This document shows positions 553 through 39,931 of a stretch of DNA of 64,000 bases, piece by piece (position 1 is the first letter of the stretch; each line of letters begins with the position of its first letter). The stretch lies in the NCBI GenBank assembly GCA_947179485.1, contig OX359246.1, positions 51,811,632-51,875,631 on the forward strand, given 5' to 3'. A program made the position numbers and the translations under genes. The stretch is from Allacma fusca (lineage: Eukaryota; Arthropoda; Collembola; Symphypleona; Sminthuridae). The notes below the pieces were generated by a model. It saw only the letters and a program-made list of their open reading frames with translations. It ran no database searches and was not told the origin of the DNA.

Positions 553-951
553 CAGGGTTGGCAAGCGGCAAGAAATGGCCTGGCCGTTATTGGTTAAAAT
601 CCGGTTCTTACCGGCTTGGTCCAATTGCTTGGGTTGGTATAAAATGGTCGTAATTAATATTATCCAAATAAATCCACTGTCCAATAAAAACCGGTTTTAA
701 CCAAAACGTACCACCGGCTTGGCTAATATTACGCATGCATGAACACAGGGTTGCCAAGTGGTCAAAAATGGCCTGGTTATTCCTGGTTAAAATCCGGTTC
801 TAACCGGCCCGGACCTGTTGTATAGTTTGGTATAAAATGGCCATAATTAATACTATCCAAATAAGTCCACTGTCCAATAAAAACCGGTTGTTACCATTTC
901 ATGCCACTGGCTTGGCCTTTATAGATAAAAGCCGGTTTTTTGCCAACCCTG
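553..951. mobile_element. hAT-type MITE (family a), copy 1
   Basis: This 399-bp non-coding element starts CAGGGTTGGCAA and ends TTGCCAACCCTG, which are inverted repeats of the hAT CAGGG type. It is flanked by the perfect 8-bp duplication ATTATATG at 545-552 and 952-959, as hAT transposases make. Internally it is two related units of about 195 bp, each with a GGCCTGG...TTAAAATCCGGTTC block, so it may be a dimer. There is no reading frame. It is inserted in R sequence and is identical in position to 16516-16914. Confidence 0.88.
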
Positions 952-1490
952 ATTATATGTTTTAGAGTTGTCACTTTAAATTGTATTTTTTTAGAATGAA
1001 AAGATTTTGAGTGTATGTGTTTGCAAACGGAAAAAATTTGGGACTCAAATTCCCGTGATATTTGCCGCGCTGACAGGTCATATAATTTTGGCCCGAGAAT
1101 TTCGGGACGGAACGGCAAGTTTGCGGAACACAAAAATGGTTGCCCGCAGAAGCTATAACAGTTATGAACAATGAACTAAAACCAAGCCTTGAAGGCAAAA
1201 TGGTCTAAAGATACCTTCCGCTACTAATTTTTGAAAACATTTAGTGGATTCAAAAATTCACTCCAAAATCCTACTGTAATTTAATTTTCTCGTTTTTTCT
1301 CAATTTTGCTGAATTTTCAGATTAGTTCACTCTTCCACCGAGAAATAATTAAGTGATTTCGAGCCTTAATTAATTGAAATATTGTGTTATCTTGATATTA
1401 TTTTAGTAATTTTTTATAGTTACAGCGGCTTCCGCTTACATTGAATTCCAGTCTAATCGGACGGGACAGTAAAGAATGTCAGAGAAGACC
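952..1490. repeat. R-family sequence, copy 1
   Basis: R-family monomer sequence resumes after the MITE: GTTTTAGAGTTGTCAC, GCGGAACACAAAAATG, GAAGGCAAAATGGTCTAAAG, CTACTAATTTTTGAA. It runs up to 1490, where a deletion joins it directly to LINE A. Short open frames on the minus strand here have no recognisable product and are read as chance. Confidence 0.65.
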
Positions 1491-1847
1491 CAGCTAGGAG
1501 CAATATCACATTAGTGAACTTGTGATGACAAATTAGTAATCCTACATTATTTTTATGTATTGTCTATGATCCATTATTGGTTTCTGTTGTTATGATCCTT
1601 AATAGTGTTAGTATGTCATTGATATAGGTATATGTCATGTCTGTAATAGCCCATTGTTGAAATGTCATATTCAGCATGTATATTTATTGTATGGCTCAAA
1701 GTACCTTGTCAAGTTTTAGCCTTATCAGGTATAACTAATGTAAGTTTCCTGGAAAAGGGTTTATAGTATTTATAGGCATGAGTCAATGATATGAAGGCAT
1801 TCCGCTGGACCCTTTCTAAAATGCCTTTCACTTTTCCTACTCGGCTT

Positions 1848-1866
1848 TCCTGTATAAATACCGAGC
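1848..1866 (+). promoter_or_regulatory. TATA-like promoter motif in LINE A leader
   Basis: CTGTATAAATACCGAG lies in the LINE A leader about 310 bp upstream of its first frame. It is followed by a pyrimidine-rich CACTTCGATTTCAACTG tract that could hold the start site. The arrangement resembles a pol II core promoter or a captured LTR promoter rather than the TATA-less promoter common in LINEs. No LTR ends could be defined, so this is a motif-level call only. The same motif occurs near 18152 in copy 2. Confidence 0.35.
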
Positions 1867-2107
1867 CCTTTCCCATTCTCAATACACTTCGATTTCAACT
1901 GTTCTACTAGTAACTTGCTCCTGTAAATAAATACTTTTCAGCCTCTTTTGAAATAGAGCTTTTCATTAAGTTGATTGATTCATATTTCATCACAGAATTC
2001 ATCCACTTCCAAAGGACTGACAGTGACCCAAACTTGACTCAAGATCTACAATACTCGTATCCAATATCACTATACACTACTCATACCTTAAGACTTACAC
2101 TAAATTA

Positions 2108-2131
2108 TTTATTTTATTTTATTTTATTTTA
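2108..2131. repeat. (TTTTA)n microsatellite in LINE A leader
   Basis: About five units of TTTTA lie just before the LINE A start codon. They are present at the same place in copy 2 (18409-18432). Confidence 0.8.
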
Positions 2132-2172
2132 CCTATTGACTAATATTCTGAGTAGAAAATCTCCCCTTTATT

Positions 2173-3834
2173 ATGGCTTATTATAAAACAGGTAGCAATG
2201 AAATTTGCAGAATTTGCTGTAAAGCAAATGCTAGAAAGGCTTTTATTACATGTAGAATATGCAAATCTGTCTATCACAACACTAATTGTCTGAATCTGTC
2301 ACTATCTATACCCGATTTCCGCATGCTAGCTAATTCTGGAACAGGGTTATGCACCTATTGTAATGACCTAGATGATAGGCACTCTATTGACTCGCTGCAT
2401 TTACTTCAACTTGGAAACAATAATGATTCCTTCTTTGAGGATAGTAAATCCTGCCCTAATAAGATAAATGCCGATGCTAATGTTACTCCAACCTTACTAC
2501 CCAAAGGTCTCTCTTTATTCTCCCTTAACATTTGTAGTCTCAGAAATAAAGTAGATGAGCTGTCAACGCTAATCTTCGAGTACAAAATTGACGTTATATG
2601 CATAGGAGAAACTTGGTTCAGTGCAAATACTCACAGTAATGAGTTAAACATAGATGGGTATACACTTTACAGAAAGGATCGTGGATCCCCAGGCGGTGGA
2701 TTATCAATTTATGTAAACTCAAACCTTCTCTATCAAATTATACCTACTTTAGGTGACTCCTTTGAATCACTGGCTATATCTGTCACTCTTCCGCACACAA
2801 ACCCTATTGCTATCACTAATATATACAGACCACCAGGACAACTGGTGAACGATGATAATTTTCTATTTGAATTTTCGGAACTCACAAAGACACTCCAAAA
2901 TCATTGCACGGAAATCTACATTCTTGGCGATCTAAACATTGACCTATTAACTACTAATAATAACAAACAAAAACTTCTCCCTGTCACTAACCGTCTAAAT
3001 CTCTCACAGTTAATTACTGAAGCAACTAGAGTTACGCAAACATCACGTAGTCTTATCGACCACATATATACTACAGACACTTCCCTTATAACTGCTTCTT
3101 GAATTGTACACAGTAGCCTTTCCGATCATGATATTATTTATGCAGTTCGTAAGAAACCTAAACTACACTTTGCCACTGTCGTGATAATATGCAGAAGCTA
3201 CTGTAATCTTAACGTAAACAAACTAAAAGATTCTTTAGCAAACGCAAAGTGGACTTTAATTGATTCCTTTGACTGCATAAACGATAAAATTGAAGTCCTG
3301 GAATGTTTAACAAACTGTATAATTGATGACTGCATACCCACTATCAAAAGAAGAGTAAGGGCAAGACCTGCAGACTGGATCACGCCGCAGATTAAAAAAC
3401 TTATCCACCACAAAAATCATTTGAAAAAAATCGCCATTAAATCAAAATGCGCAAATGCATGGATAAATTACAAAGCTGCGCGAAACTCAGTAACTCAAAC
3501 CATTCGTAATTTGAAGGCCAAGTTTATTAATAATAAATTTAGTAAATGCAAAACCTCCAAAGAATCTTACGACGCATTTAAACAATTAATTGGAGATAAA
3601 ATAAATAGTACTAACATTCCAATCATTGAATGCAACGCCATTAAGCTCTCAGATAAATCTGAAATCTGTGACAAGCTTGCTAAAGCCTTTGTCCTTGATC
3701 ACCCTAATGACGACCCTTTCTTAAATAGTATTACATCCTCCATAAAACGAAACAATTTTTCTGTTAAATTTGTTGAAAGAAAAGAAATAATCTCACTGAT
3801 TAAATACACCAAAAAAATACTCTGCGGGATTTAA
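2173..3834 (+). pseudogene. LINE A PHD finger + endonuclease, copy 1
   Basis: From the ATG, the first 60 or so residues carry a C-x2-C...C-x2-C...H-x4-C...C-x2-C pattern, read as a PHD-like zinc finger. An EEP/APE-type endonuclease follows: SLNICSLRNK, ICIGETW, RKDRGSPGGG, NIYRPPG, YILGDLNIDLL, LIDHIYT and, after a stop, SDHD. These are the Mg-binding and catalytic landmarks of LINE endonucleases that nick the target DNA. TGA at 3100-3102 interrupts the frame, which is otherwise open to 3834. There a frameshift leads into the RT. The same stop is in copy 2, so the element was dead before duplication, unless the stop is read through. Confidence 0.82.
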
Positions 3835-5013
3835 AAACATACCATCCAACGTCCTCAAATTATTCCCTGAATTTTTTGCTCCTATTCTTGCAAATATATT
3901 TAATTCTGCCCTGAATATAAGCAAATTCCCGTCAGCATGGAAAAAAGTCACCCCTATTAATAAACCGAAAACAAACAAATTATTAGCCACATCCTATAGA
4001 CCAATCTCAATCCTACCTTTCTTGTCTAAAATATTTGAATCTGTCATTGCTACACGAATAATCAGTTTTGTTAACAAGTCTAACTTATTATCTAGTTACG
4101 TATTTGGATTTCGAAAAAGTAAGTCGACATTGCATGCATTAATTGAAGTAACCCATAATCTATTTGAAGCTATAGAGAGTAAAATGTATGTAGGTGCACT
4201 GTTTGTGGATCTTCGCAAAGCATTTGACAGTATCAAATACAATTAATTCTTAAACTCCAACAAATTTACCAGCTCCCTAATTACCTTATAGACATTCTAT
4301 AATGCTACCTCCAACAGCGTACATTCTCCGTTAAATTGGGCACTTTTCTCTCTAACCCATACGGGCTGTATGGTGGCGTCCCTCAGGGAAGTGTCTTGGG
4401 TCCAATACTATTTATTCTCTATTTTAATGATATTACTAGCGCGCTTAAAAACTATATGCAGATGATATTGCAATTGTATGTTCTGCGAAAAATATTACTA
4501 CTCTTGAATGAACTTGAAGTGGCATTGGGAAATATTCACTCTTGGTGTAACTCCAATAACATGGAAGTGAACTTTAAAAAAACGGTTTTCATGACTTTTA
4601 CTCAACCTTATTCAAAATTAAACTGCAATATCAACTCAATATCTGTTTGCTCAAACATAATTAGTCGAGTGGATTGCTTTAAATACCTAGGAGTTCATAT
4701 TGACAAACACCTTTCATTCAGTAAACATGCCAATGAAGTTCACAAAAAAATAACATTTAAATGCTCTCAGGTTATTAAATACAAACGACTTATTAGCCCT
4801 AAATTCTTACCTATAGTGTTTAAATCTCTTGTATTTTCGCAAATTGATTACGGGTTCCCTATCTGGGGAACAGTAAACAACTCCATGTCAATCCACCATC
4901 GATCATTTCCTAAAGTGTATACACTTCAAAGGGTATTAGTTCAAACCGATTTACGACAAGCTCAAACTATCCAACTTACTAAAATCCACACACAAAACAA
5001 CAAATCAACCTAA
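3835..5013 (+). pseudogene. LINE A reverse transcriptase, copy 1
   Basis: RT motifs are spread over shifted frames: SYRPISILPFLSK, GFRKSKSTLHAL and VDLRKAFDSI (4022-4246), then GGVPQGSVLGPILF (from 4336) and FKYLGVHIDKHLSF. The YADD catalytic box is encoded at 4455-4466, but out of frame with the flanking motifs, and a later indel restores the frame. Stops near 4246 and 5013 and these shifts make the enzyme non-functional. The family role is target-primed reverse transcription of the LINE RNA. Confidence 0.82.
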
Positions 5014-16515: not shown

Positions 16516-16914
16516 CAGGGTTGGCAAGCGGCAAGAAATGGCCTGGCCGTTATTGGTTAAAATCCGGTTCTTACCGGCTTGGTCCAATTGCTTGGGTTGG
16601 TATAAAATGGTCGTAATTAATATTATCCAAATAAATCCACTGTCCAATAAAAACCGGTTTTAACCAAAACGTACCACCGGCTTGGCTAATATTACGCATG
16701 CATGAACACAGGGTTGCCAAGTGGTCAAAAATGGCCTGGTTATTCCTGGTTAAAATCCGGTTCTAACCGGCCCGGACCTGTTGTATAGTTTGGTATAAAA
16801 TGGCCATAATTAATACTATCCAAATAAGTCCACTGTCCAATAAAAACCGGTTGTTACCATTTCATGCCACTGGCTTGGCCTTTATAGATAAAAGCCGGTT
16901 TTTTGCCAACCCTG
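16516..16914. mobile_element. hAT-type MITE (family a), copy 2
   Basis: Second copy of the element at 553-951, with the same termini and the same ATTATATG duplication. It was therefore carried along by the segmental duplication rather than inserted anew. Confidence 0.88.
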
Positions 16915-17453
16915 ATTATATGTTTTAGAGTTGTCACTTTAAATTGTATTTTTTTAGAATGAAAAGATTTTGAGTGTATGTGTTTGCAAACGGAAAAAAT
17001 TTGGGACTCAAATTCCCGTGATATTTGCCGCGCTGACAGGTCATATAATTTTGGCCCGAGAATTTCGGGACGGAACGGCAAGTTTGCGGAACACAAAAAT
17101 GGTTGCCCGCAGAAGCTATAACAGTTATGAACAATGAACTAAAACCAAGCCTTGAAGGCAAAATGGTCTAAAGATACCTTCCGCTACTAATTTTTGAAAA
17201 CATTTAGTGGATTCAAAAATTCACTCCAAAATCCTACTGTAATTTAATTTTCTCGTTTTTTCTCAATTTTGCTGAATTTTCAGATTAGTTCACTCTTCCA
17301 CCGAGAAATAATTAAGTGATTTCGAGCCTTAATTAATTGAAATATTGTGTTATCTTGATATTATTTTAGTAATTTTTTATAGTTACAGCGGCTTCCGCTT
17401 ATATTGAATTCCAGTCTAATCGGACGGGACAGTAAAGAATGTCAGAGAAGACA
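16915..17453. repeat. R-family sequence, copy 2
   Basis: This matches 952-1490 with one visible substitution near 17401. Confidence 0.65.
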
Positions 17454-17791
17454 AAATTATTTGAACAGCAAGACCATTCCATTTCAAAATCAATCCCAAA
17501 TGGGCTAAAGGGACCAATCGCTTCCACTCTGATCGCGCACTTCCACTCTGACTGCCGAGCAGAGTGGTTAAAGCCATATGGCTCTGTCATTCCTGCACTG
17601 AAACGATACTCCAGGCTCCTGGTTGCCACTTAAAGCCACGGTGAATGGTCTCACCCAGCTGTAACTGCTGCCAGGTTCCTGACAACCTCCAATGTCACGG
17701 CTGTGTCAGCCCAGCTGTAACAACGAGGGAGTTACCTTTGACCTGGACAGCAGAGTCCAGTCGTGAGTTACTTCTTTTCCACCTCAACACC
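17454..17791. other. 338-bp GC-richer block present only in copy 2
   Basis: The block lies between R sequence and LINE A. It contains GCAGAGTGGTTAAAGCC, then two related stretches built on CCCAGCTGTAAC and CAGGYTCCTG with CACGG words, ending CCTCAACACCCAGC. Copy 1 lacks it, and the joint there shows only a two-base AC overlap, so a deletion in copy 1 is likely. It may be the GC-rich 5' UTR of LINE A or a separate SINE-like insert. No protein is supported. Confidence 0.55.
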
Positions 17792-18473
17792 CAGCTAGGA
17801 GCAATATCACATTAGTGAACTTGTGATGACAAATTAGTAATCCTACATTATTTTTATGTATTGTCTATGATCCATTATTGGTTTCTGTTGTTATGATCCT
17901 TAATAGTGTTAGTATGTCATTGATATAGGTATATGTCATGTCTGTAATAGCCCATTGTTGAAATGTCATATTCAGCATGTATATTTATTGTATGGCTCAA
18001 AGTACCTTGTCAAGTTTTAGCCTTATCAGGTATAACTAATGTAAGTTTCCTGGAAAAGGGTTTATAGTATTTATAGGCATGAGTCAATGATATGAAGGCA
18101 TTCCGCTGGACCCTTTCTAAAATGCCTTTCACTTTTCCTACTCGGCTTTCCTGTATAAATACCGAGCCCTTTCCCATTCTCAATACACTTCGATTTCAAC
18201 TGTTCTACTAGTAACTTGCTCCTGTAAATAAATACTTTTCAGCCTCTTTTGAAATAGAGCTTTTCATTAAGTTGATTGATTCATATTTCATCACAGAATT
18301 CATCCACTTCCAAAGGACTGACAGTGACCCAAACTTGACTCAAGATCTACAATACTCGTATCCAATATCACTATACTTTACTCATACCTTAAGACTTACA
18401 CTAAATTATTTATTTTATTTTATTTTATTTTACCTATTGACTAATATTCTGAGTAGAAAATCTCCCCTTTATT

Positions 18474-20135
18474 ATGGCTTATTATAAAACAGGTAGCAAT
18501 GAAATTTGCAGAATTTGCTGTAAAGCAAATGCTAGAAAGGCTTTTATTACATGTAGAATATGCAAATCTGTCTATCACAACACTAATTGTCTGAATCTGT
18601 CACTATCTATACCCGATTTCCGCATGCTAGCTAATTCTGGAACAGGGTTATGCACCTATTGTAATGACCTAGATGATAGGCACTCTATTGACTCGCTGCA
18701 TTTACTTCAACTTGGAAACAATAATGATTCCTTCTTTGAGGATAGTAAATCCTGCCCTAATAAGATAAATGCCGATGCTAATGTTACTCCAACCTTACTA
18801 CCCAAAGGTCTCTCTTTATTCTCCCTTAACATTTGTAGTCTCAGAAATAAAGTAGATGAGCTGTCAACGCTAATCTTCGAGTACAAAATTGACGTTATAT
18901 GCATAGGAGAAACTTGGTTCAGTGCAAATACTCACAGTAATGAGTTAAACATAGATGGGTATACACTTTACAGAAAGGATCGTGGATCCCCAGGCGGTGG
19001 ATTATCAATTTATGTAAACTCAAACCTTCTCTATCAAATTATACCTACTTTAGGTGACTCCTTTGAATCACTGGCTATATCTGTCACTCTTCCGCACACA
19101 AACCCTATTGCTATCACTAATATATACAGACCACCAGGACAACTGGTGAACGATGATAATTTTCTATTTGAATTTTCGGAACTCACAAAGACACTCCAAA
19201 ATCATTGCACGGAAATCTACATTCTTGGCGATCTAAACATTGACCTATTAACTACTAATAATAACAAACAAAAACTTCTCCCTGTCACTAACCGTCTAAA
19301 TCTCTCACAGTTAATTACTGAAGCAACTAGAGTTACGCAAACATCACGTAGTCTTATCGACCACATATATACTACAGACACTTCCCTTATAACTGCTTCT
19401 TGAATTGTACACAGTAGCCTTTCCAATCATGATATTATTTATGCAGTTCGTAAGAAACCTAAACTACACTTTGCCACTGTCGTGATAATATGCAGAAGCT
19501 ACTGTAATCTTAACGTAAACAAACTAAAAGATTCTTTAGCAAACGCAAAGTGGACTTTAATTGATTCCTTTGACTGCATAAACGATAAAATTGAAGTCCT
19601 GGAATGTTTAACAAACTGTATAATTGATGACTGCATACCCACTATCAAAAGAAGAGTAAGGGCAAGACCTGCAGACTGGATCACGCCGCAGATTAAAAAA
19701 CTTATCCACCACAAAAATCACTTGAAAAAAATCGCCATTAAATCAAAATGCGCAAATGCATGGATAAATTACAAAGCTGCGCGAAACTCAGTAACTCAAA
19801 CCATTCGTAATTTGAAGGCCAAGTTTATTAATAATAAATTTAGTAAATGCAAAACCTCCAAAGAATCTTACGACGCATTTAAACAATTAATTGGAGATAA
19901 AATAAATAGTACTAACATTCCAATCATTGAATGCAACGCCATTAAGCTCTCAGATAAATCTGAAATCTGTGACAAGCTTGCTAAAGCCTTTGTCCTTGAT
20001 CACCCTAATGACGACCCTTTCTTAAATAGTATTACATCCTCCACAAAACGAAACAATTTTTCTGTTAAATTTGTTGAAAGAAAAGAAATAATCTCACTGA
20101 TTAAATACACCAAAAAAATACTCTGCGGGATTTAA
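18474..20135 (+). pseudogene. LINE A PHD finger + endonuclease, copy 2
   Basis: The domain layout and TGA (19401-19403) are those of copy 1. The first 309 residues are identical, and the second part differs by one residue (Ile to Thr, near 20043). No selection or repair of the stop is apparent. Confidence 0.82.
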
Positions 20136-21314
20136 AAACATACCATCCAACGTCCTCAAATTATTCCCTGAATTTTTTGCTCCTATTCTTGCAAATATAT
20201 TTAATTCTGCCCTGAATATAAGCAAATTCCCGTCAGCATGGAAAAAAGTCACCCCTATTAATAAACCGAAAACAAACAAATTATTAGCCACATCCTATAG
20301 ACCAATCTCAATCCTACCTTTCTTGTCTAAAATATTTGAATCTGTCATTGCTACACGAATAATCAGTTTTGTTAACAAGTCTAACTTATTATCTAGTTAC
20401 GTATTTGGATTTCGAAAAAGTAAGTCGACATTGCATGCATTAATTGAAGTAACCCATAATCTATTTGAAGCTATAGAGAGTAAAATGTATGTAGGTGCAC
20501 TGTTTGTGGATCTTCGCAAAGCATTTGACAGTATCAAATACAATTAATTCTTAAACTCCAACAAATTTACCAGCTCCCTAATTACCTTATAGACATTCTA
20601 TAATGCTACCTCCAACAGCGTACATTCTCCGTTAAATTGGGCACTTTTCTCTCTAACCCATACGGGCTGTATGGTGGCGTCCCTCAGGGAAGTGTCTTGG
20701 GTCCAATACTATTTATTCTCTATTTTAATGATATTACTAGCGCGCTTAAAAACTATATGCAGATGATATTGCAATTGTATGTTCTGCGAAAAATATTACT
20801 ACTCTTGAATGAACTTGAAGTGGCATTGGGAAATATTCACTCTTGGTGTAACTCCAATAACATGGAAGTGAACTTTAAAAAAACGGTTTTCATGACTTTT
20901 ACTCAACCTTATTCAAAATTAAACTGCAATATCAACTCAATATCTGTTTGCTCAAACATAATTAGTCGAGTGGATTGCTTTAAATACCTAGGAGTTCATA
21001 TTGACAAACACCTTTCATTCAGTAAACATGCCAATGAAGTTCACAAAAAAATAACATTTAAATGCTCTCAGGTTATTAAATACAAACGACTTATTAGCCC
21101 TAAATTCTTACCTATAGTGTTTAAATCTCTTGTATTTTCGCAAATTGATTACGGGTTCCCTATCTGGGGAACAGTAAACAACTCCATGTCAATCCACCAT
21201 CGATCATTTCCTAAAGTGTATACACTTCAAAGGGTATTAGTTCAAACCGATTTACGACAAGCTCAAACTATCCAACTTACTAAAATCCACACACAAAAAA
21301 ACAAATCGACCTAA
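20136..21314 (+). pseudogene. LINE A reverse transcriptase, copy 2
   Basis: RT relic with the same frameshifts as 3835-5013; YADD is again out of frame with GGVPQGSVLG. One residue differs from copy 1 close to the C-terminus (Asn to Lys). Confidence 0.82.
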
Positions 21315-30559: not shown

Positions 30560-31152
30560 TCACGAAAATCCGAAATCCGACTGCAGTTGAATACAACCTC
30601 GCGGCTTCACTCATTCAACCGGAATTTAGCAACAACGTAACGGTTGTAAAATTGTTTGTTCCCCAGAAGATTACGTCCCGTCCCTATCCAGTTCCGAAGT
30701 AAAAATGAAACTATCATTGAGTCTCAGAGATGACCCATTCGAAACGCAACCAATCCAAAGTCCCATTATTCTAAAAGAGCACCATTTAAAGCGACAAATC
30801 TAAAAGGTATAATCGTATTAGATGCCTCTTAGATTGAATGCCTCTAGACGATTCTGCTTGTCCTTGGAAGATCTTATTAACGAGTAACATGTTATGACGG
30901 TTCCGTTGGCCTACTACTTTAATCAGGGGTAGATTAATAAAATATTTTTTACCCTGGCCCCAAGCCTCATAATGCATTTGTGGGCCTTTCAACTTTCAAT
31001 CTGAGGGCCTTCGTTAAATTTTTTTAACCCCCGGACCAGGGTGGGCCACCACGTAAATCCACCATTGATTTAAACCAGAGCATGTTATGTAGTCACACAA
31101 ATTCGGTCGGAAATCTGAATGTAGTTGAATTTCACTTCGCGCCAGTCCTCCA
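30560..31152. repeat. R-family sequence
   Basis: R blocks recur here (TCACGAAAATCCGAAATCCG, AGATTACGTCCCGTCC, GAATGCCTCTAGACGATT, GACGGTTCCGTTGGCCTAC). A short foreign stretch, GGCCCCAAGC...TTTAACCCCCGG, lies around 30927-31080. There is no gene. Confidence 0.6.
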
Positions 31153-31698: not shown

Positions 31699-31703
31699 AT
31701 TGC
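31699..31703. repeat. 5-bp target duplication (left) of copia element
   Basis: ATTGC here is repeated at 38444-38448, immediately outside the two LTRs. Ty1/copia integrases typically generate 5 bp. Confidence 0.85.
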
Positions 31704-32036
31704 TGTGAGTTTACATACATGACTTATGAATATGAGTAATACCTATATTTACAATCCCATATTTAGGGTTATTACTATCTTAGCACTCTTACTGTTTACT
31801 CAACAAGTTCAAGGGTTCGGTCCTTTCTCTTCTTTGTTCATCCCTTCTTATTTTGATAACTCTGCTGAGTCCTATATAAACCAAGTGTTTCCCCTTCACT
31901 CAGTAAGTCGTCATCCCACACCGTTACTCTGTCTGTCTTCTCATTTATATTGATTATCAGTTTTACTGAATAAATCCTCTATTATATATTGTATAACTTT
32001 CATATTGCATAACTTTATACTCTTCATTTACTCACA
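31704..32036 (+). repeat. 5' LTR of copia element
   Basis: The LTR starts TGTGAGTTTACATAC and ends TTTACTCACA (TG...CA). It contains TCCTATATAAACC as a TATA-like box (about 31869-31881) and TGAATAAATCC as a polyadenylation signal (about 31968-31978). It is 15 bp longer than the 3' LTR through an ACTTT/CATATTGC stretch near 32000. Confidence 0.93.
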
Positions 32037-32048
32037 TGGTAGCAGAAC
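32037..32048 (+). other. Primer binding site (initiator tRNA-Met type)
   Basis: TGGTAGCAGAAC directly follows the 5' LTR. Its first ten bases are complementary to the 3' end of initiator methionine tRNA (ending CTGCTACCA), the primer used by many copia elements. Confidence 0.85.
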
Positions 32049-32204
32049 GTATGGGTTTCGTTTCACAATTCCAAGTAAATTTTCTATAGCAAACGAAGTA
32101 GTTCACAGGTTTAACAAGCTCTTCAGTTGAATTTGTTAGTGATATCGACAGTGCTACGAAAGTTTTGGAAAAGTTTATAATTGTGAAGTTCTTTGTGGTC
32201 AGGT

Positions 32205-32720
32205 ATGGCATCTAAATTCAGTGTGAAAATTGAGAAGCTCGACGGAACCAACTATAACTGTTGGAAGTTGGATGTGCAGCTAGCACTAGAGGCAGCGGAG
32301 TTGTGGGAGGTAGCAGACGGAAGTGAAACGCTACCAGCAGATGACACTAAGAAAAAAGCATGGAAACTGAAAGATGTTCAAGCCCGGGCAATCATTGTGC
32401 CATCCTTGGTCAAGACACAGAAGAACCACATCTACAGTTGCAAAACGGCTAAGGAAATGCTGGACAGGCTTCGGGACCTGCACTCAGACTCAAGCATACT
32501 CAACCTGCAGCATACGATGACCAAGTTCCTCGACTACCAGATTGAAAAGGACGTATCTCCAGTAAAGGCGATGCTGGAACTTCAAGAATTGGCAAGGATG
32601 CTTGCGGACATGCAGAATCCAGTATCAGATGCCTGGCTCGTCAACAGAGTTGTGTCAAGTCTACCTGCCGAATATCTACCTTTCAAGAAATCATGGGCTT
32701 CAGTACCTGTGAAGTCCTAA
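32205..32720 (+). pseudogene. Copia Gag, N-terminal part
   Basis: The ATG at 32205 opens a frame of about 170 codons of copia-type Gag: FSVKIEKLDGTNYNCWK at the N-terminus, MLDRLRDLHS and LARMLADMQNP further on. Gag builds the virus-like particle. The frame ends at 32720 after a single-base shift near 32700, and the zinc-knuckle part is in the next frame. Confidence 0.88.
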
Positions 32721-34048
32721 ACATCAGAACACTGATGGCAAGACTCAAGACCGAAGAACTTGAAAAGCGTGTGGCAAATGAAACCGAAGATTCGGAATCT
32801 ACACGAGCCTTCTACGCCAGAAATGATCGCCAACACACCGACAAGAATACATCTGAACGCAGAAGGTCTGATGTGAAGTGCTTTAAATGTAGAAAAATTG
32901 GTCACTACAGAAGCAACTGCCGGAGTGGTAACAGCGGAAACTCTCATGGCAACCGGGGAGATTGTGGGCAAGGGGACCGTCGTCAAGGGGGACGTGGACA
33001 TACCGATCGTGGACATGGCGATCGAGGACAGGGCGATCGAGGACATGGAGATCGTGGACACGGAGAACGAGTACGTGCTTTCATGGGCAGAACTGATGAT
33101 TCATCTCAACGATCAAGTTCACGTGCACAGAATGACTCATCTGAAACTGAAGCGCCCATCTACAAGACGCGAGCATTCATGGGACGGATTACTAGTACTT
33201 CCTCCTCTACACTTCCATCTGAAGAATGGATAAGTGACTCTGGTGCCACCCACCATATTTGCGGAAACAAGGCCTGGTTTGCGCATCTAAATGAAAACGG
33301 TACAAAAAATTCAGTTTCTTTAGCTAGTAACACCTCCATTAAAGCAGCAGGGAAGGGAACAGTTGTCTTGGAGGCGTTGATGGACGGCGAGTGGGTAAAG
33401 TGTACCCTCAATAGCGTTATCTATATACCAGGAGCTGCCAATTTGTTTTCTGAAATTATTATGGCTCAAAAAGGCTTCAGAGTAGAAACTGTTAAGGATT
33501 GTGTTATGTACTATGAGAATAGAACCATACCTAGCAACAGCGCGATATTTCAGGGTGGGGTATATGTTATGCAGTTCAGACCGTTGCAAGAACGAATTAG
33601 TGCTTTTGTAGCTATATCCAGACAGGATAATACTAGAATTTGGCATCAGCGCCTTGTGCATATAAATTGCAAGTACATATCTGAAACAGCCTGCAAAAAT
33701 GCAGTAAGAGGTTTGTCAGATATTGATGCAAATAACAAAGTAATTTGTGAATCCTGTGAGCTAGGTAAGCAGAAAAGGAAACCTTTCCCACGTGTAACTA
33801 GTACAGATAATTATCAGCCAGGGGAAAAGTTGTATGCAGATTTAGCAGGTAGATTTTCCATACCAGCTCTTGGAGGTGCGAGATATTTTCTTCTCGTAAA
33901 GGACCATGCAACTAGTTTCCGCCTCGCCTACTTTCTCAAAAAGAAAGATGAAACGACAGTGCATCAAAGATTGTGTAGCATACCTTGCAAACCAAACGAA
34001 GAACACCGTCAAACTGTTCCAAAGCGACAACGGTGGAGAATTTGTTAA
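32693..34048 (+). pseudogene. Copia Gag zinc knuckle, protease and integrase N-terminal part
   Basis: This open stretch carries the Gag C-terminus with zinc knuckle CFKCRKIGHYRSNC (32879-32920), then a basic run of GHGDRG-type hexapeptide repeats. The aspartic protease active site is WISDSGATHHIC (about 33226). The integrase HHCC zinc domain is WHQRLVH...CESCELGKQ, and the start of the catalytic core is LYADLAGRF (first Asp). The frame is lost near 33970 by a shift. Confidence 0.88.
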
Positions 34049-34739
34049 TCAAGAATTGGGACGGTTGTTTCGCCAAAAGGGCATTGGTCATGAAACGACA
34101 GCAGCTTACTGCCCCGAAAGTAATGGCAAGATTGAACGTGAAATATGTACCATAAAAGAGTCTGCCAGGACAATACTACTGGCTAGAAAACTTCCTGAGA
34201 AGTTTTGGGGATAAGCAGTGAGAACAGCTGTATATATCCATAATAGGGTGCTAGATAAGCAGAGCCCAGAAATTACAGCGTACGAAGCAATATTCGGTAG
34301 AAAGCCCAGCCTTGCACATGTCCGAATCTTCGGATGTACAGTTTACGTTCATATCCCTGAAGAAACGCGCACCTGTTGGCAGAATAAGGGGAAGAAGTGC
34401 ATCTTTGTGGGGTACTCCAGTATGGACAGGAAGTACCGGATGTACGACGAAGAAACTGATCGGGTCTTCGAAGTCCGGAATGCTACTTTCCATGCAGTAG
34501 AACCATTGCCAGTCCAAACTTTGCGTCAGATAGCCGAAGCTGAGATAACAATTGAAGCTCCCGAAGCTACAGGAAACAACCAGGAACCGGCTGCGGAGGA
34601 AGAACAAATATCATTGGAGTGTCCAATAGTGCCCACTCCTTCATCAGCTCCCTCAACCCAAGAACATCAAAATCAGAAAACGACGCTGGACAACGCCTCC
34701 CATCCACTTCAAGTTCGGCCCAGAAAACACGTGAGGTAG
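33972..34739 (+). pseudogene. Copia integrase core and C-terminal part
   Basis: It contains FQSDNGGEF (second Asp) and YCPESNGKIERE (catalytic Glu), completing the DD-E triad outside the first Asp. ITAYEAIFGRKPSLAHVRIFGC and FVGYSSMDRKYRMYD then mark the integrase C-terminal region. TAA at 34212-34214 interrupts the frame in phase. The frame is lost again near 34600-34739. Confidence 0.85.
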
Positions 34740-35652
34740 TAATTCGGACTCTACAGGGAGACTTTACTGCCACCATCCCAGAAGGAAAGGAGGTAGAGAT
34801 CAAGCTTCCCACGAAAAAGAAATTTCAGGACTTTGTCCCTGAAGTCCTGACCAGTAGATTGCGAGACCGTGGTAACAACACAAAACCCCGCGCAAACAGC
34901 CCGTGTGGTTCATGAGCCACAGACCTACAAACAAGCCCTAGCATCTCCAGAAAGGAACGAATGGATGAAGGCAATTGAAGATGAAATCGCCAGTCGGGAA
35001 GCCATTGACACATGGGAAGTCGTGGAAAAGCCTAATGCAGCTAAACTCCTTGACATGAAGTGGGTGTTCAAATTGAAAAGAAACCCTGACGGCTCTATTG
35101 CCCGGTACAAGGCACGTTTAGTAGTAAGAGGCTACCGTCAAGAGGAAGGTGTGGACTTTTGCTTCTGTGGTACGGTATGAGTCTATAAGACTACTCCTTG
35201 CGATTACGTCATCCTTAGGTTACTGCATCCGCCAGTTTGATGAAACTGCTTTTCTTCATGGAGATTTAAAAGAACTAATATTTACGAAGCTTCCAGAAGG
35301 GTTAAACGTAAGCAAGTCAGGCACCGTGCTAAAGTTGCTCAAGAGCATATACGGACTTAAACAAGCTCCAAGATGTTGGAATGAGAAATTTTCAAACTTT
35401 CTAGATTTAGCTCTTGGATTCAAGCGGTCTAACTATGACCCGAGTGTTTTTATAGGCTATGTGGACAATTTTCAAGTAATATTGGCTCTTTATGTCGACG
35501 ATGGTTTGGTTATGTCACCAAATGAATCAGCAATCCAAGCTGTCATGGATGGAATTGCAGCAGCATTTGAAATCACAACTGGTCCTCCTTCAAGTTATGT
35601 TGGTTTGGAAATCTTCCGAGATGAGGAGAACGGGGACATCACAATTTCTTAG
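34740..35652 (+). pseudogene. Copia reverse transcriptase
   Basis: RT motifs are present in two frames: EWMKAIEDEIASRE, MKWVFKLKRNPDGSIARYKARLV (34869-35180), then FDETAFLHGDLKE, GLKQAPRCWNEKF and the catalytic YVDD at 35491-35502 (35149-35652). One shift lies near 35150. TAG at 35650-35652 is an in-phase stop before RNase H. All key RT residues seen are conserved. Confidence 0.88.
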
Positions 35653-36433
35653 TGTGGCTACACAAAATCACTCTTCGAAAGGTTTAACATGTCTGAATGT
35701 TATCCGTCAAATGTCCATATGCAACCCTATACAGACTTGGTACCCACTTCAGAAGTTCACACGGAGTTTCCCTATCGAGAACTTATAAGTTCGCTTTTAT
35801 TTTTGGCAAAATGCACGCGCCCGGATATTTCGTTTTCTGTTAGCAAGTTGGCTCAATTCAGCAACGGTCACGACGAGACGCATTGGAAGGCCGCCAAAGG
35901 AGTCCTGAGGTACCTACGAGGAACAACGGACCATGGAATTACATATCGGAAAGCAGGATCCTTAACTCTCAAAGCCTATACAGACTCGGACTACGCCGGT
36001 GACAAGGTTACGCGTAAGTCTACCAGTGGAATGGTGGTAACGTTAAATGACACCCATAAGCTGGCAGAGCCAAAAGCAGCCATGTGTAGCATTATCCTCC
36101 ACTGAGGCAGAATACATTGCCCTCAATGTCGGAGCAAAAGAGGTTAAGTGGCTCCGATCCTTCATGTCAGAACTATCAGTTTCCCAGCCACACCCCACTG
36201 ACATTTTTGTAGACAACCAAAGCTCTATAAAATTAGCTAAAAATCCCGAAATGCATTCTCGCACAAAGCACATAGATGTGCGATATCATCATACCCGTGA
36301 TCTGATAGAACAGGGCAAAATTAGCATTAAATATATAGCAACTACGGAGCAGCTAGCTGACGGTCTTACTAAGCCATTGATGAAAACTAAGCTGGTAGAA
36401 AACAGAAATGATTTAGGTCTTCATGACAGGGGT
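35653..36433 (+). pseudogene. Copia RNase H
   Basis: It continues in phase from the RT after the TAG: LLFLAKCTRPDISF, YTDSDYAGDK (catalytic Asp pair) and STSGMVV. After a shift near 36050 come ALSSTEAEYIAL, IFVDNQSSIKLAKNP and LADGLTKPL, the standard C-terminal end of copia Pol. There is no stop between this end and the env-like region. Confidence 0.88.
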
Positions 36434-37978
36434 ATCATCAGAGCAAATCTGTCACGGTCGTCCCCTTGGACCATTTTTGCATTGTTGGCCATGTTTGTCC
36501 TTAGTGCATGTGCAAGCTCCCATCAAAACTCTCATCAAGTAATTTGGCGCAAAAGTAAGACCCCCATTACCATTGGACACTACCAAGTGAACTTGAAGGT
36601 TAATTTCGTCAACCCTTGTGATATTCTCAAAAAGACCGTTGTCCATTCGGACCTTTTACCATCTGCCCAAGCAAAGTGTAATGAACTATACCAGGAACTT
36701 TTTATTAGTGAACTAGAGAAAATGTGTCAACGAAAGGAGTGGACGGAAATCACATTGCGAAAGAAGCGTGTAGTTGATCTGATCATTGGACTAATCATTA
36801 TAGCTGTAATTGCAAGTGCAGGGATTGGCATCGCCGGTACCACGATAGCAGTGATAAACTCCAACAGGATTTCATCAATTGAGGATCGGATCTCGGCTGA
36901 GGAAATTATCCTGAATGGTGCCCAAGAGCAAATTAAGAAACATCTGGACAACATTAAGAAATTGCAAATTAATTTCGATGCTACATTACGTAATTTAAGC
37001 TCTCTTCAAGTTGACCATGATGAGCTTAAGGGGAAGATGGTTGGAAGTACATTTGCCATCGCTTACCTTACCAATCAACTCCTAGCAGCAAAATCCGTCG
37101 TTCGCGAAGCCCATCGCCAGTGGAAGCAGGGTTTTGTAAATGCAGGTTTTCTTGACTACTTCAATTATAGTCTACGATGTGGCGACTCATGTCCTCTACA
37201 CCTTGCTCGGCCACAGCAGTGTGCGATGTCTGAAGATGGTACAAAGATGTACATGGATTTTGCTCTGCCTATGATCAGCGATGAACTAACCCTAGTGGAA
37301 GCTGACGCCTTTCATCTCATGGCCCGTAAAGGTGATCGAACGTGTACCATTAAATACATAGGACCGACAAATGCAATACTATCAAAAGCTGACGACTGCA
37401 TTCGAGCGGTAAATGTGGAGCCACCAACAAGGTATGACCATATCCTTGCCCCTACGAAAGGATGTCTACCGCAGATGGAAGGAGGAAACGAGACGAAGTA
37501 CTTCACCTTTTCCCATTGTGAGAAGCGAAGCGTACGGGATGAGCAGAACTTTGTTCAGATAAAGCCTTACAACGGGTTTTACCTTGTCTACTGCCCCGAG
37601 TCAAACCTGACTATCGAAGGAAGTCCCGGAAAGTGTACCAACGATGTAATGACTATTCCGATGAAGACCAATTTTCATGTAAACGATATGGAAATTCCAA
37701 GGAAACCGAATAAGTGCTGTTCATCATGAATCATTAGATCACACATTTACTGTGCAAACCAATTGGCACTTAAAAACAAGTGTAAACTGATGATGGTAGA
37801 CGTCGATAAAAGCGATTTTCAAGTGCACAAGTTAACTGAACATGGCTTTCACAATGTTACCACATACACTACATTGATATGTATAGTAATTATTGTATCT
37901 TCTATGATTGTCATTATCTATCTATGTGAAGGAAAGCGAGGATCGAAGGGGAAATATCTGTTATTGCTAGACCTTTAA
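36434..37978 (+). pseudogene. Envelope-like glycoprotein region of the copia element
   Basis: This is open in phase with RNase H to 37729 and, after a TGA, to 37978. From the N-terminus it has a hydrophobic leader (36464-36520); a region with paired Cys; the basic site RKKR (36758-36769), furin-like; a 29-residue hydrophobic Gly/Ala/Ile-rich segment at once after it (36770-36856), fusion-peptide-like; a heptad coiled coil (about 36869-37036); and a Cys-rich ectodomain with NYS, NET and NLT sequons. After the TGA at 37727-37729 come an NVT sequon, a 19-residue membrane segment (37871-37927) and a short basic tail. The plan is that of a class-I-like fusion protein. Homology to a named Env family is not established. 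No Met precedes the leader. Confidence 0.72.
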
Positions 37979-38111
37979 CTACAGAGACATATGAGATGAC
38001 ACAAGTTGTTAGTAAGTAAGCTCATCAAGGTCTTTACATGTCGAATGTTATTTGAATTCCTGTAGTTATAATTATTTGATTTTTGTTTTAATTTTTAAAC
38101 CCTAAATATTG

Positions 38112-38125
38112 AGATTGAGGGAAGG
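38112..38125 (+). other. Polypurine tract of copia element
   Basis: GAGATTGAGGGAAGG-type purine run directly before the 3' LTR; the expected plus-strand primer site. Confidence 0.8.
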
Positions 38126-38443
38126 TGTGAGTTTACATACATGACTCATGAATATGAGTAATACCTATATTTACAATCCCATATTTAGGGTTATTACTAT
38201 CTTAGCACTCTTACTGTTTACTCAACAAGTTCAAGGGTTCAGTCCTTTCTCTTCTTTGTTCATCCCTTCTTATTTTGATAACTCTGCTGAGTCCTATATA
38301 AACCAAGTGTTTCCCCTTCACTCAGTAAGTCGTCATCCCACACCGTTACTCTGTCTGTCTTCTCATTTATATTGATTATCATTTTTACTGAATAAATCCT
38401 CTATTATATATTGTATAACTTTCATACTCTTCATTTACTCACA
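38126..38443 (+). repeat. 3' LTR of copia element
   Basis: Starts TGTGAGTTTACATAC and ends TTTACTCACA like the 5' LTR. The differences noticed are three substitutions and one 15-bp indel. It is followed by the ATTGC duplication. Confidence 0.93.
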
Positions 38444-38448
38444 ATTGC

Positions 38449-39931
38449 TAGTTGAAAACTTTTATTTGACATAGCAATTTAAGACGGTTCCGAAAGCTTA
38501 CTACTTTAATCAGGTCATGTACAGTCATGAAAATCCAATCCGACTGGAGTTGAATACAACCTCCTGGCTTCCCTCCCGACTTTCGGTTTTCATTTTTGTA
38601 CCCGATAATAAGATCTTCCAGGACAAGTAAAAACGTCTAGAGGCATTCTTGATTTAAATGATTGTACCATTTAGAGCTGTCACTCTACATGGTGCTCTTT
38701 TAGAATAATGGGACTTTGCATTGGTTGCGTTTCGAATGGGACAACGTGTCCTGTTAGGGGGGCAAGTAACACGGGGATATATTTGAGTCCCGAAATTTTT
38801 CCGTTTGCAAAAAAATACCCTCAAAAATTTTTCACTCTAAAAAATACACTTTAAAGTGACGACTGCAAAACGTATAATCTAGTAAGGAGAGTTATTCACA
38901 TTGGTTTAAATGGAATGGTCTGACTGTGCCGATAATTTTCTCTGTCCGGACAATCAGTATTGTTCCGTCGAAATCGCCTAGATTCCAATGGAAGCAGAAG
39001 CCGATTTGACCATTACAAAACGGTCTGACTGTGCAGATAATTATCGCGATGTTAGAGTCCGGGACATCTTTGCCTCCTCGGAAACGTTCCGGAAAAACCC
39101 GTTTCCCGAACCGGTTCCGGTTCCTTTCCAAACCTGCAGAAAATGAATAGATTTCATTTTTATGGACGTCAAAATTGTGTGGGATTTCAAATGATAGTTG
39201 ACAAAATGCTTGACGAATGCATGTCTCGCGTTTTCATCCAAGAAGGCAGCATTAACAACCGTTTCCCGAAAACGAAACGGTTAAAATATTATATTACCAC
39301 TTCTAAAATATTGCAAAAGGCCTTCATACTCGAAGGGTCAATTCATGTGAAAACTAGGTCAAATGCTCGAAGTTCATTTTGCATAACCGTTATAGCTTCG
39401 GAAGGCAACAACTTCTGTGTTCCGCAAAAGGTTACGTCACGAACCGAATTATGCGTCCGGATCCCATCCCGAAATAACACTGGGGCAATACTTGATTACA
39501 AAAAAGGACTTAATTAAACTTTTATTAACATACCGCTTCTAAAATATCTCCAATAAATGAAAGCTTCAAATCACTCAACTCGTGCCTGGAGCAAGAGTAA
39601 ATTCATTTTCAAAATTTAGGTTGATTGAGGAACTGCGCGACGTTATATTCAACTACAGTCGGATTTCGGAGATATTTTTTGTGACTTCACAAAAAGACCG
39701 GATTAAAGTAGTAAGCTACCGGGACCGTCATAAAAGGGTATGTGACAAGAAGAACTCCAAGACTAAACAAATGTCCCGGAACAACTACTATTTTAATCAG
39801 TTCATGTTGTGTAGTCAAATAATTTCGATTCGAAATCCGCCTGTAGTTCAATTTACCTTCGCGCCAACCCTCAAGAAACCTGAATTTATCAAATTAAGTC
39901 TTCCTCCAGGCGGGAGTTAAGTGATTTCGAG
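38449..39931. repeat. R-family sequence in both orientations
   Basis: Forward blocks occur near 38480-38600 and 38880-39020 (ATGGAATGGTCTGACTGTGC), reverse blocks near 39370-39780 (AACTACAGTCGGATTTCGG, AAAGTAGTAAGCTACC), and forward again to 39923. A stretch of TTCCGG/CCGGTTCC words lies at 39080-39125. Frames of 60-120 codons here have no recognisable product. Confidence 0.55.

Follow-up and report, generated by a model that had tools for sequence, protein, structure and literature searches.

The window analysed here is a stretch of 64,000 nucleotides from the springtail Allacma fusca (contig OX359246.1, positions 51,811,632 to 51,875,631 of the forward strand; positions below are counted from the first letter of the window). 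The element at positions 31704-38443 is a decayed Ty1/copia provirus with an envelope-like (env) region downstream of gag and pol, and it probably belongs to a recently active springtail Ty1/copia lineage whose env gene codes for a class I fusion glycoprotein of the F type (paramyxovirus/baculovirus-F-like). Its parts are the following.

31699..31703, no strand: left target-site duplication (TSD), 5 bp, ATTGC
31704..32036, + strand: 5' long terminal repeat (LTR), TG...CA
32037..32049, + strand: primer binding site (PBS), immediately 3' of the 5' LTR
32208..32720, + strand: gag piece (PF14223 Retrotran_gag_2, PF13961)
32693..34048, + strand: end of gag and start of pol, with zinc knuckle, Pol_BBD and gag_pre-integrase (Pfam)
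33906..34739, + strand: integrase core (weak match) and SH3-like domain, in two pieces (Pfam)
34869..35652, + strand: reverse transcriptase (RT) RVT_2, in two pieces (Pfam)
35689..36379, + strand: RNase H, broken in the window copy, with its end near LTKPL
36380..37729, + strand: env-like region, in frame with RNase H and terminating at a stop
about 36458-36514, + strand: signal-like peak in the env-like region
36758-36769, + strand: RKKR
from 36770, + strand: fusion-peptide-like stretch, then coiled coil and Cys-rich part
37763..37978, + strand: env C-terminal piece, separate, past the stop
about 37871-37927, + strand: membrane anchor with basic tail, within the C-terminal piece
38111..38125, + strand: polypurine tract, just ahead of the 3' LTR
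38126..38443, + strand: 3' LTR
38444..38448, no strand: right TSD, 5 bp, ATTGC

The first-pass annotation, which was made from the letters of the window, had described clean LTRs, a TSD and the copia order of integrase ahead of RT. The boundaries proved exact: ATTGC stands on both sides, and the LTRs (333 bases at the 5' side and 318 at the 3' side), which start with TG as in Ty1/copia elements, differ by 3 mismatches in 318 compared columns and one 15-column gap. The Pfam order (gag PF14223, zinc knuckle, gag_pre-integrs, rve, SH3 and RVT_2) likewise agrees with a Ty1/copia element, with integrase before an RVT_2-type RT and RNase H; note that the rve match itself lay below its cut-off (23.6 bits versus 32.6), whereas SH3 and gag_pre-integrs were above theirs. 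The PBS may resemble the 3' end of the initiator Met tRNA; the PBS of the L018 family is different. The window copy is regarded as decayed because its gag-pol is split among several overlapping or separated reading frames. An open reading frame (ORF) of 560 codons (36047-37729) begins within RNase H and continues in frame into the env-like region.

Layout and conservation of the env-like region

In the window copy, the env ORF has a hydrophobic stretch after RKKR (KD19 peak, 2.79) and 5 sequons, and the piece 37763-37978 contains the anchor (peak, 2.89). A region of more than 500 codons with a leader, RKKR, an adjacent hydrophobic stretch, a coiled coil, sequons and an anchor had been proposed, and this description holds; the further statement that the anchor lies past one stop is too simple, since the reading around that stop is out of register with the relatives (judged by eye). 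When 14 family representatives, with identities ranging down to 28%, were aligned, 27 columns were invariant, among them nine cysteines as well as the cleavage-site KR, and the layout is thus beyond chance. The signal-like hydrophobic peak and the fusion-peptide-like peak were present in all 14, a basic [KR]x[KR]R site directly ahead of the hydrophobic stretch in 13 (L024 retains only KR), and the anchor peak in 11 (the window piece and L004 stop short of the anchor, and L017 has none above the threshold). The coiled coil was assigned from weak coiled-coil matches and a long predicted helix. The four parts of an F-type layout, i.e., basic cleavage site, fusion peptide, coiled coil and C-terminal anchor, were therefore all found.

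Several variations were also observed. The cytoplasmic tails of env are short, and an S-V-x-A-x-P-like stretch is common to several families; in L065, L066 and L067, which make up one family, RNase H and env are separated by a long linker rich in lysine. Five copies (L021, L023, L024, L025 and L027) have an extra ORF of 101-130 codons between the env stop and the 3' end, with MGVPH in four of the five and an end resembling KRPRME or KEPRLG; it was not seen in L022, L026 and L028, and may encode an accessory protein in two copia families.

Copies in the Allacma genome and relatives in other records

The Allacma fusca assembly (392.7 Mb) was searched for copies sharing RT and env. Only part of the candidates was scored, so that the copy counts are lower bounds. 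With the 560-residue ORF, at least 94 matches were obtained (78 of 301 candidates scored), with identities from 100% to about 34%, and the env of a diverged family, used as a second query, brought at least 83 matches (83 of 271 candidates scored). After removal of 16 of the 94 rows of the first search (RNase H only, or short), the merged searches gave at least 137 distinct env places. For the copia RT, 150 RVT_2 matches were scored (of 221 candidates), and 123 of them had an env relative on the same strand within 3.5 kb downstream. Among the remaining 27, L060 has env by profile search, and the match at C8:51369365 has env 3.8 kb downstream, slightly past the limit; of the other 25, eight had an RT above 200 bits, one of these with a 1720-codon frame. 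In the profile search, env adjoined all of the 30 best-scoring of the 150 RVT_2 loci, which are partly copies of one family. In 59 copies (21 from the first search and 38 from the second), env is part of a single frame that runs for at least 1900 codons with no stop. Twenty further copies were read from the RNase H motif onwards: 19 keep one open frame across env, and L027 has stops. A 1958-codon env-bearing family is clustered at C8 50.66-51.20 Mb and at C1 22.60-23.04 Mb.

Relatives in other records were sought with three protein searches, which cover relatives sharing short words in part of the length range. Twelve were obtained, among them records of Allacma and of Folsomia candida: P0008, an Allacma fusca fragment, is 100% identical to the window env region over 35% of the query; P0010 is a 1741-residue polyprotein with copia gag, pol and env; and P0012 is a distant env (24% identity) that stands alone and has a start of its own, a search with which returned P0012 alone and no further relative. 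In the env tree, the Folsomia rows fell into two well-supported clades, and the deeper forks were partly open. Two Folsomia candida gene models (P0002 and P0006) have integrase-side parts joined to env without most of RT, and these joins could reflect splicing or a model artefact.

The first-pass annotation had itself considered that env might be absent from the other copies of the family, or might be a membrane protein of the host, picked up a single time by read-through. The first possibility disagrees with the copies described above. No supporting point was found for the second, and because 123 of the 150 copia RT matches scored have the region beside them, env is no single capture; its relatives stand in diverged families and in another springtail. 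A host origin of this kind is barely conceivable, and its single-capture form is refuted by the same counts together with the 30 best RVT_2 loci.

Predicted fold and origin of env

By sequence, no known envelope was matched in Pfam, PDB sequences, viral contigs or phage records. No Pfam family fits env: the paramyxovirus F family PF00523 gave a weak match in one of the 14 env members (E = 0.045), several members matched unrelated families equally well or better, and the better E-values belonged to unrelated families. Coiled-coil proteins made up most of the PDB sequence matches, and paramyxovirus F 1ztm was also among them (E = 0.17). Among the viral contigs there were 9 pattern matches, none of them a relative of env, and no origin for env was found in the phage records.

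A match was found at the level of the predicted fold. The AlphaFold2 model of the relative P0001 was of moderate quality (pLDDT, 61.3); when it was compared with PDB by Foldseek, all 50 rows listed were paramyxovirus or pneumovirus F proteins (best E = 4.4e-8), with identities of 8-14%. Against the viral library, baculovirus F and arli-/lispivirus glycoproteins were among the best rows. An earlier AlphaFold2 model built from 8 rows (pLDDT, 48.9) gave F proteins in 48 of the 50 PDB rows listed and coronavirus spike in the other two. With moderate confidence, these predictions suggest that the env of the copia lineage has the F fold. This fold and the order of parts would be shared with paramyxovirus and pneumovirus F, baculovirus F and the arli-/lispivirus glycoproteins, from which the springtail env differs in being carried by a retroelement and in its low identity to the PDB rows listed. 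Since the matches are F-type folds of viruses, they also speak against an unrelated host membrane protein.

Errantivirus/baculovirus F and phlebovirus-like glycoproteins had been named at the outset for comparison. The phlebovirus/bunyavirus-type rows of the viral fold list (envelopment polyproteins) were all weak (E = 0.005 or worse); the link to baculovirus F was seen by fold and not by sequence. PF12259 (Baculo_F) was not among the 25 of 34 Pfam families listed for the env members, the Allacma genome has seven PF12259 matches (L047-L053, on C10 and C12), none at the copia env places, and hhalign of the copia env with six of these seven gave a probability of 0.6%. One of them, L052, has a BEL/Pao-like RNase H upstream (judged by eye), and BEL/Pao elements in the Allacma genome may carry a different, baculovirus-type env.

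Recent activity, inheritance and mode of spread

LTR pairs were compared for 13 copies, and the duplications were read by eye from the flanks. Nine pairs (5' pieces L032-L038, L040 and L041) were 99.7-100% identical, seven of them at 100%, with a matching 5-bp duplication, and all nine come from copies with frames of more than 1900 codons. The L029/L005 LTRs were 99.6% identical with a matching duplication, L030/L006 were 99.6% identical without one, L031/L007 gave a longer identical stretch in an apparently tandem arrangement, and the L039/L042 comparison matched satellite repeats and was unusable. Among the nine, the three pairs of the L018 family end with TA instead of CA. L007 and L008 are apparently in tandem. 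The copia lineage with env is recently active in the springtail genome.

For dN/dS, 12 pairs were tried, of which 6 were saturated at synonymous sites; the values were about 0.14-0.32 in four close pairs and near 0.9 in L005/L016, and one pair was uninformative. Third positions had changed more than first and second positions in four of four pairs. It is conceivable that env is a non-functional passenger, a fossil now decaying, and the window copy and many others are indeed broken; this is highly improbable, however, in view of the synonymous excess, the 59 copies with stop-free frames and the identical or near-identical LTRs in nine open copies. Distances in RNase H and env were correlated (r = 0.55; 15 of 16 rows, P0009 being absent; 36 of 9999 permutations as high), also for the 13 Allacma rows (r = 0.58; 32 of 9999) and for 12 of these without the outlier L018 (r = 0.35; 338 of 9999). 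Judged from these sequences, the correlation fits a broadly shared inheritance, in which exchanges may also have occurred.

If env serves in entry, the following steps would be expected. Either a Gag-Pol-Env polyprotein would contain the env part or a spliced mRNA would encode it, and the internal signal segment would direct it to the endoplasmic reticulum. A furin-type protease would cut at the basic site, separating a short N-terminal subunit from the fusion subunit that is anchored in the membrane, and env would trimerise via the coiled coil and fuse membranes, so that particles could move from cell to cell (e.g., out of the soma into the germ line) and perhaps also from animal to animal. 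In 12 RNase H-env junctions, neither a conserved start codon before the signal segment nor a splice acceptor standing out was seen, and 8 leaders had no conserved splice donor near the gag start.

The lineage may have been an infectious copia-type retrovirus, as the first-pass annotation had supposed, and some animal copia elements may spread between cells in the manner of retroviruses. The fuller proposal, that springtails host living Ty1/copia retroviruses with an extracellular phase, in which an F-type envelope is the rule and is made in the Gag-Pol-Env frame, putatively for cell entry, is put forward tentatively, at slightly less than an even chance. It competes with the reading that env has the F fold and a role other than entry (a surface protein blocking superinfection, or particle assembly), the elements spreading as ordinary retrotransposons. 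The expression of env is unexplained by the junctions read, the one-family clusters on C8 and C1 fit a purely intracellular spread, and Pseudoviridae are intracellular according to the ICTV profile (PMC8515867); on the other hand, even the most diverged families aligned have the cleavage site, the fusion-peptide-like stretch and the anchor (L024 being alone without the full basic site), and we consider a non-entry role unlikely. Somewhat less likely still, an exogenous retrovirus now circulating in springtails has left these sequences repeatedly as fossils in the germ line, and they are not mainly copies made within the genome. Several diverged families with near-identical copies, and the two separate clades of Folsomia rows, are consistent with such a source; copying within the genome also fits the near-identical copies, however, and no exogenous counterpart was found among the viral contigs.

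Errantiviruses (Ty3/gypsy, with a baculovirus-F-like env) have an env with a basic cleavage site and a fusion peptide. They resemble the springtail lineage in these parts, in the match to the F-type fold and in the arthropod host; however, in Errantivirus and other Metaviridae, RT and RNase H precede integrase, whereas integrase precedes RT in the springtail lineage, and the seven PF12259 places in the Allacma genome differ from the copia env places. LTR retrotransposons turn retrovirus-like through envelope gain, Anakin being a BEL/Pao element. Errantiviruses and Anakin are the examples of such gain in the part of PMC12440569 consulted, and the portion consulted of a silkmoth study (PMC6563192) describes eleven LTR elements with env, of which those placed lie near TED, tirant, ZAM and a Bombyx endogenous retrovirus. 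For the capture of an F protein, the best precedent that was found is offered by the TelKA elements, which the consulted sections of PMC5408684 place among the retrovirus-like lineages of bdelloid rotifers, with an env strongly matching pfam00523. As described there, TelKA shares with the springtail lineage an LTR element with a class I paramyxovirus-type F env, RXXR, a fusion peptide, a coiled coil and an anchor, whereas the springtail pol is of Ty1/copia type and the PF00523 match is the single weak one given above.

For Pseudoviridae, the ICTV profile states that there is no extracellular phase, its table adding that virions might be enveloped, and describes sireviruses as restricted to plants and as mostly encoding an Env-like protein (PMC8515867). 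Sirevirus, like the springtail lineage, has a Ty1/copia pol and an env-like gene downstream of gag-pol. The springtail lineage differs in its animal host, Allacma fusca, so that the plant restriction fails, and in an env that is in frame with gag-pol, matches the F-type fold and has the cleavage-site/fusion-peptide layout, Sirevirus being compared by description only. No earlier report of env in animal copia or springtail elements was found in the literature (open-licence papers, judged by the titles and abstract openings listed; one may be published elsewhere). If true, extracellular copia retroviruses would be at odds with the purely intracellular life described for Pseudoviridae, and retroviruses would have arisen independently from a third superfamily of animal LTR elements. 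Because one springtail has many open copies and recent insertions of a copia lineage whose fusion-type protein is conserved, it can be tested directly whether a copia capsid leaves and enters cells with an envelope.

Other features of the window were also recorded. An 84-nt inverted repeat (89%; 30731-30814 and 38660-38743) brackets the provirus, as if it had been inserted into a terminal-inverted-repeat element. Positions 553-5013 and 16516-21314 are two direct copies of a tandem array and of three ORFs, whose sizes agree between the two; Pfam, run on the first copy, gave Exo_endo_phos and RVT_1, and these are either LINE-type copies or a local duplication.

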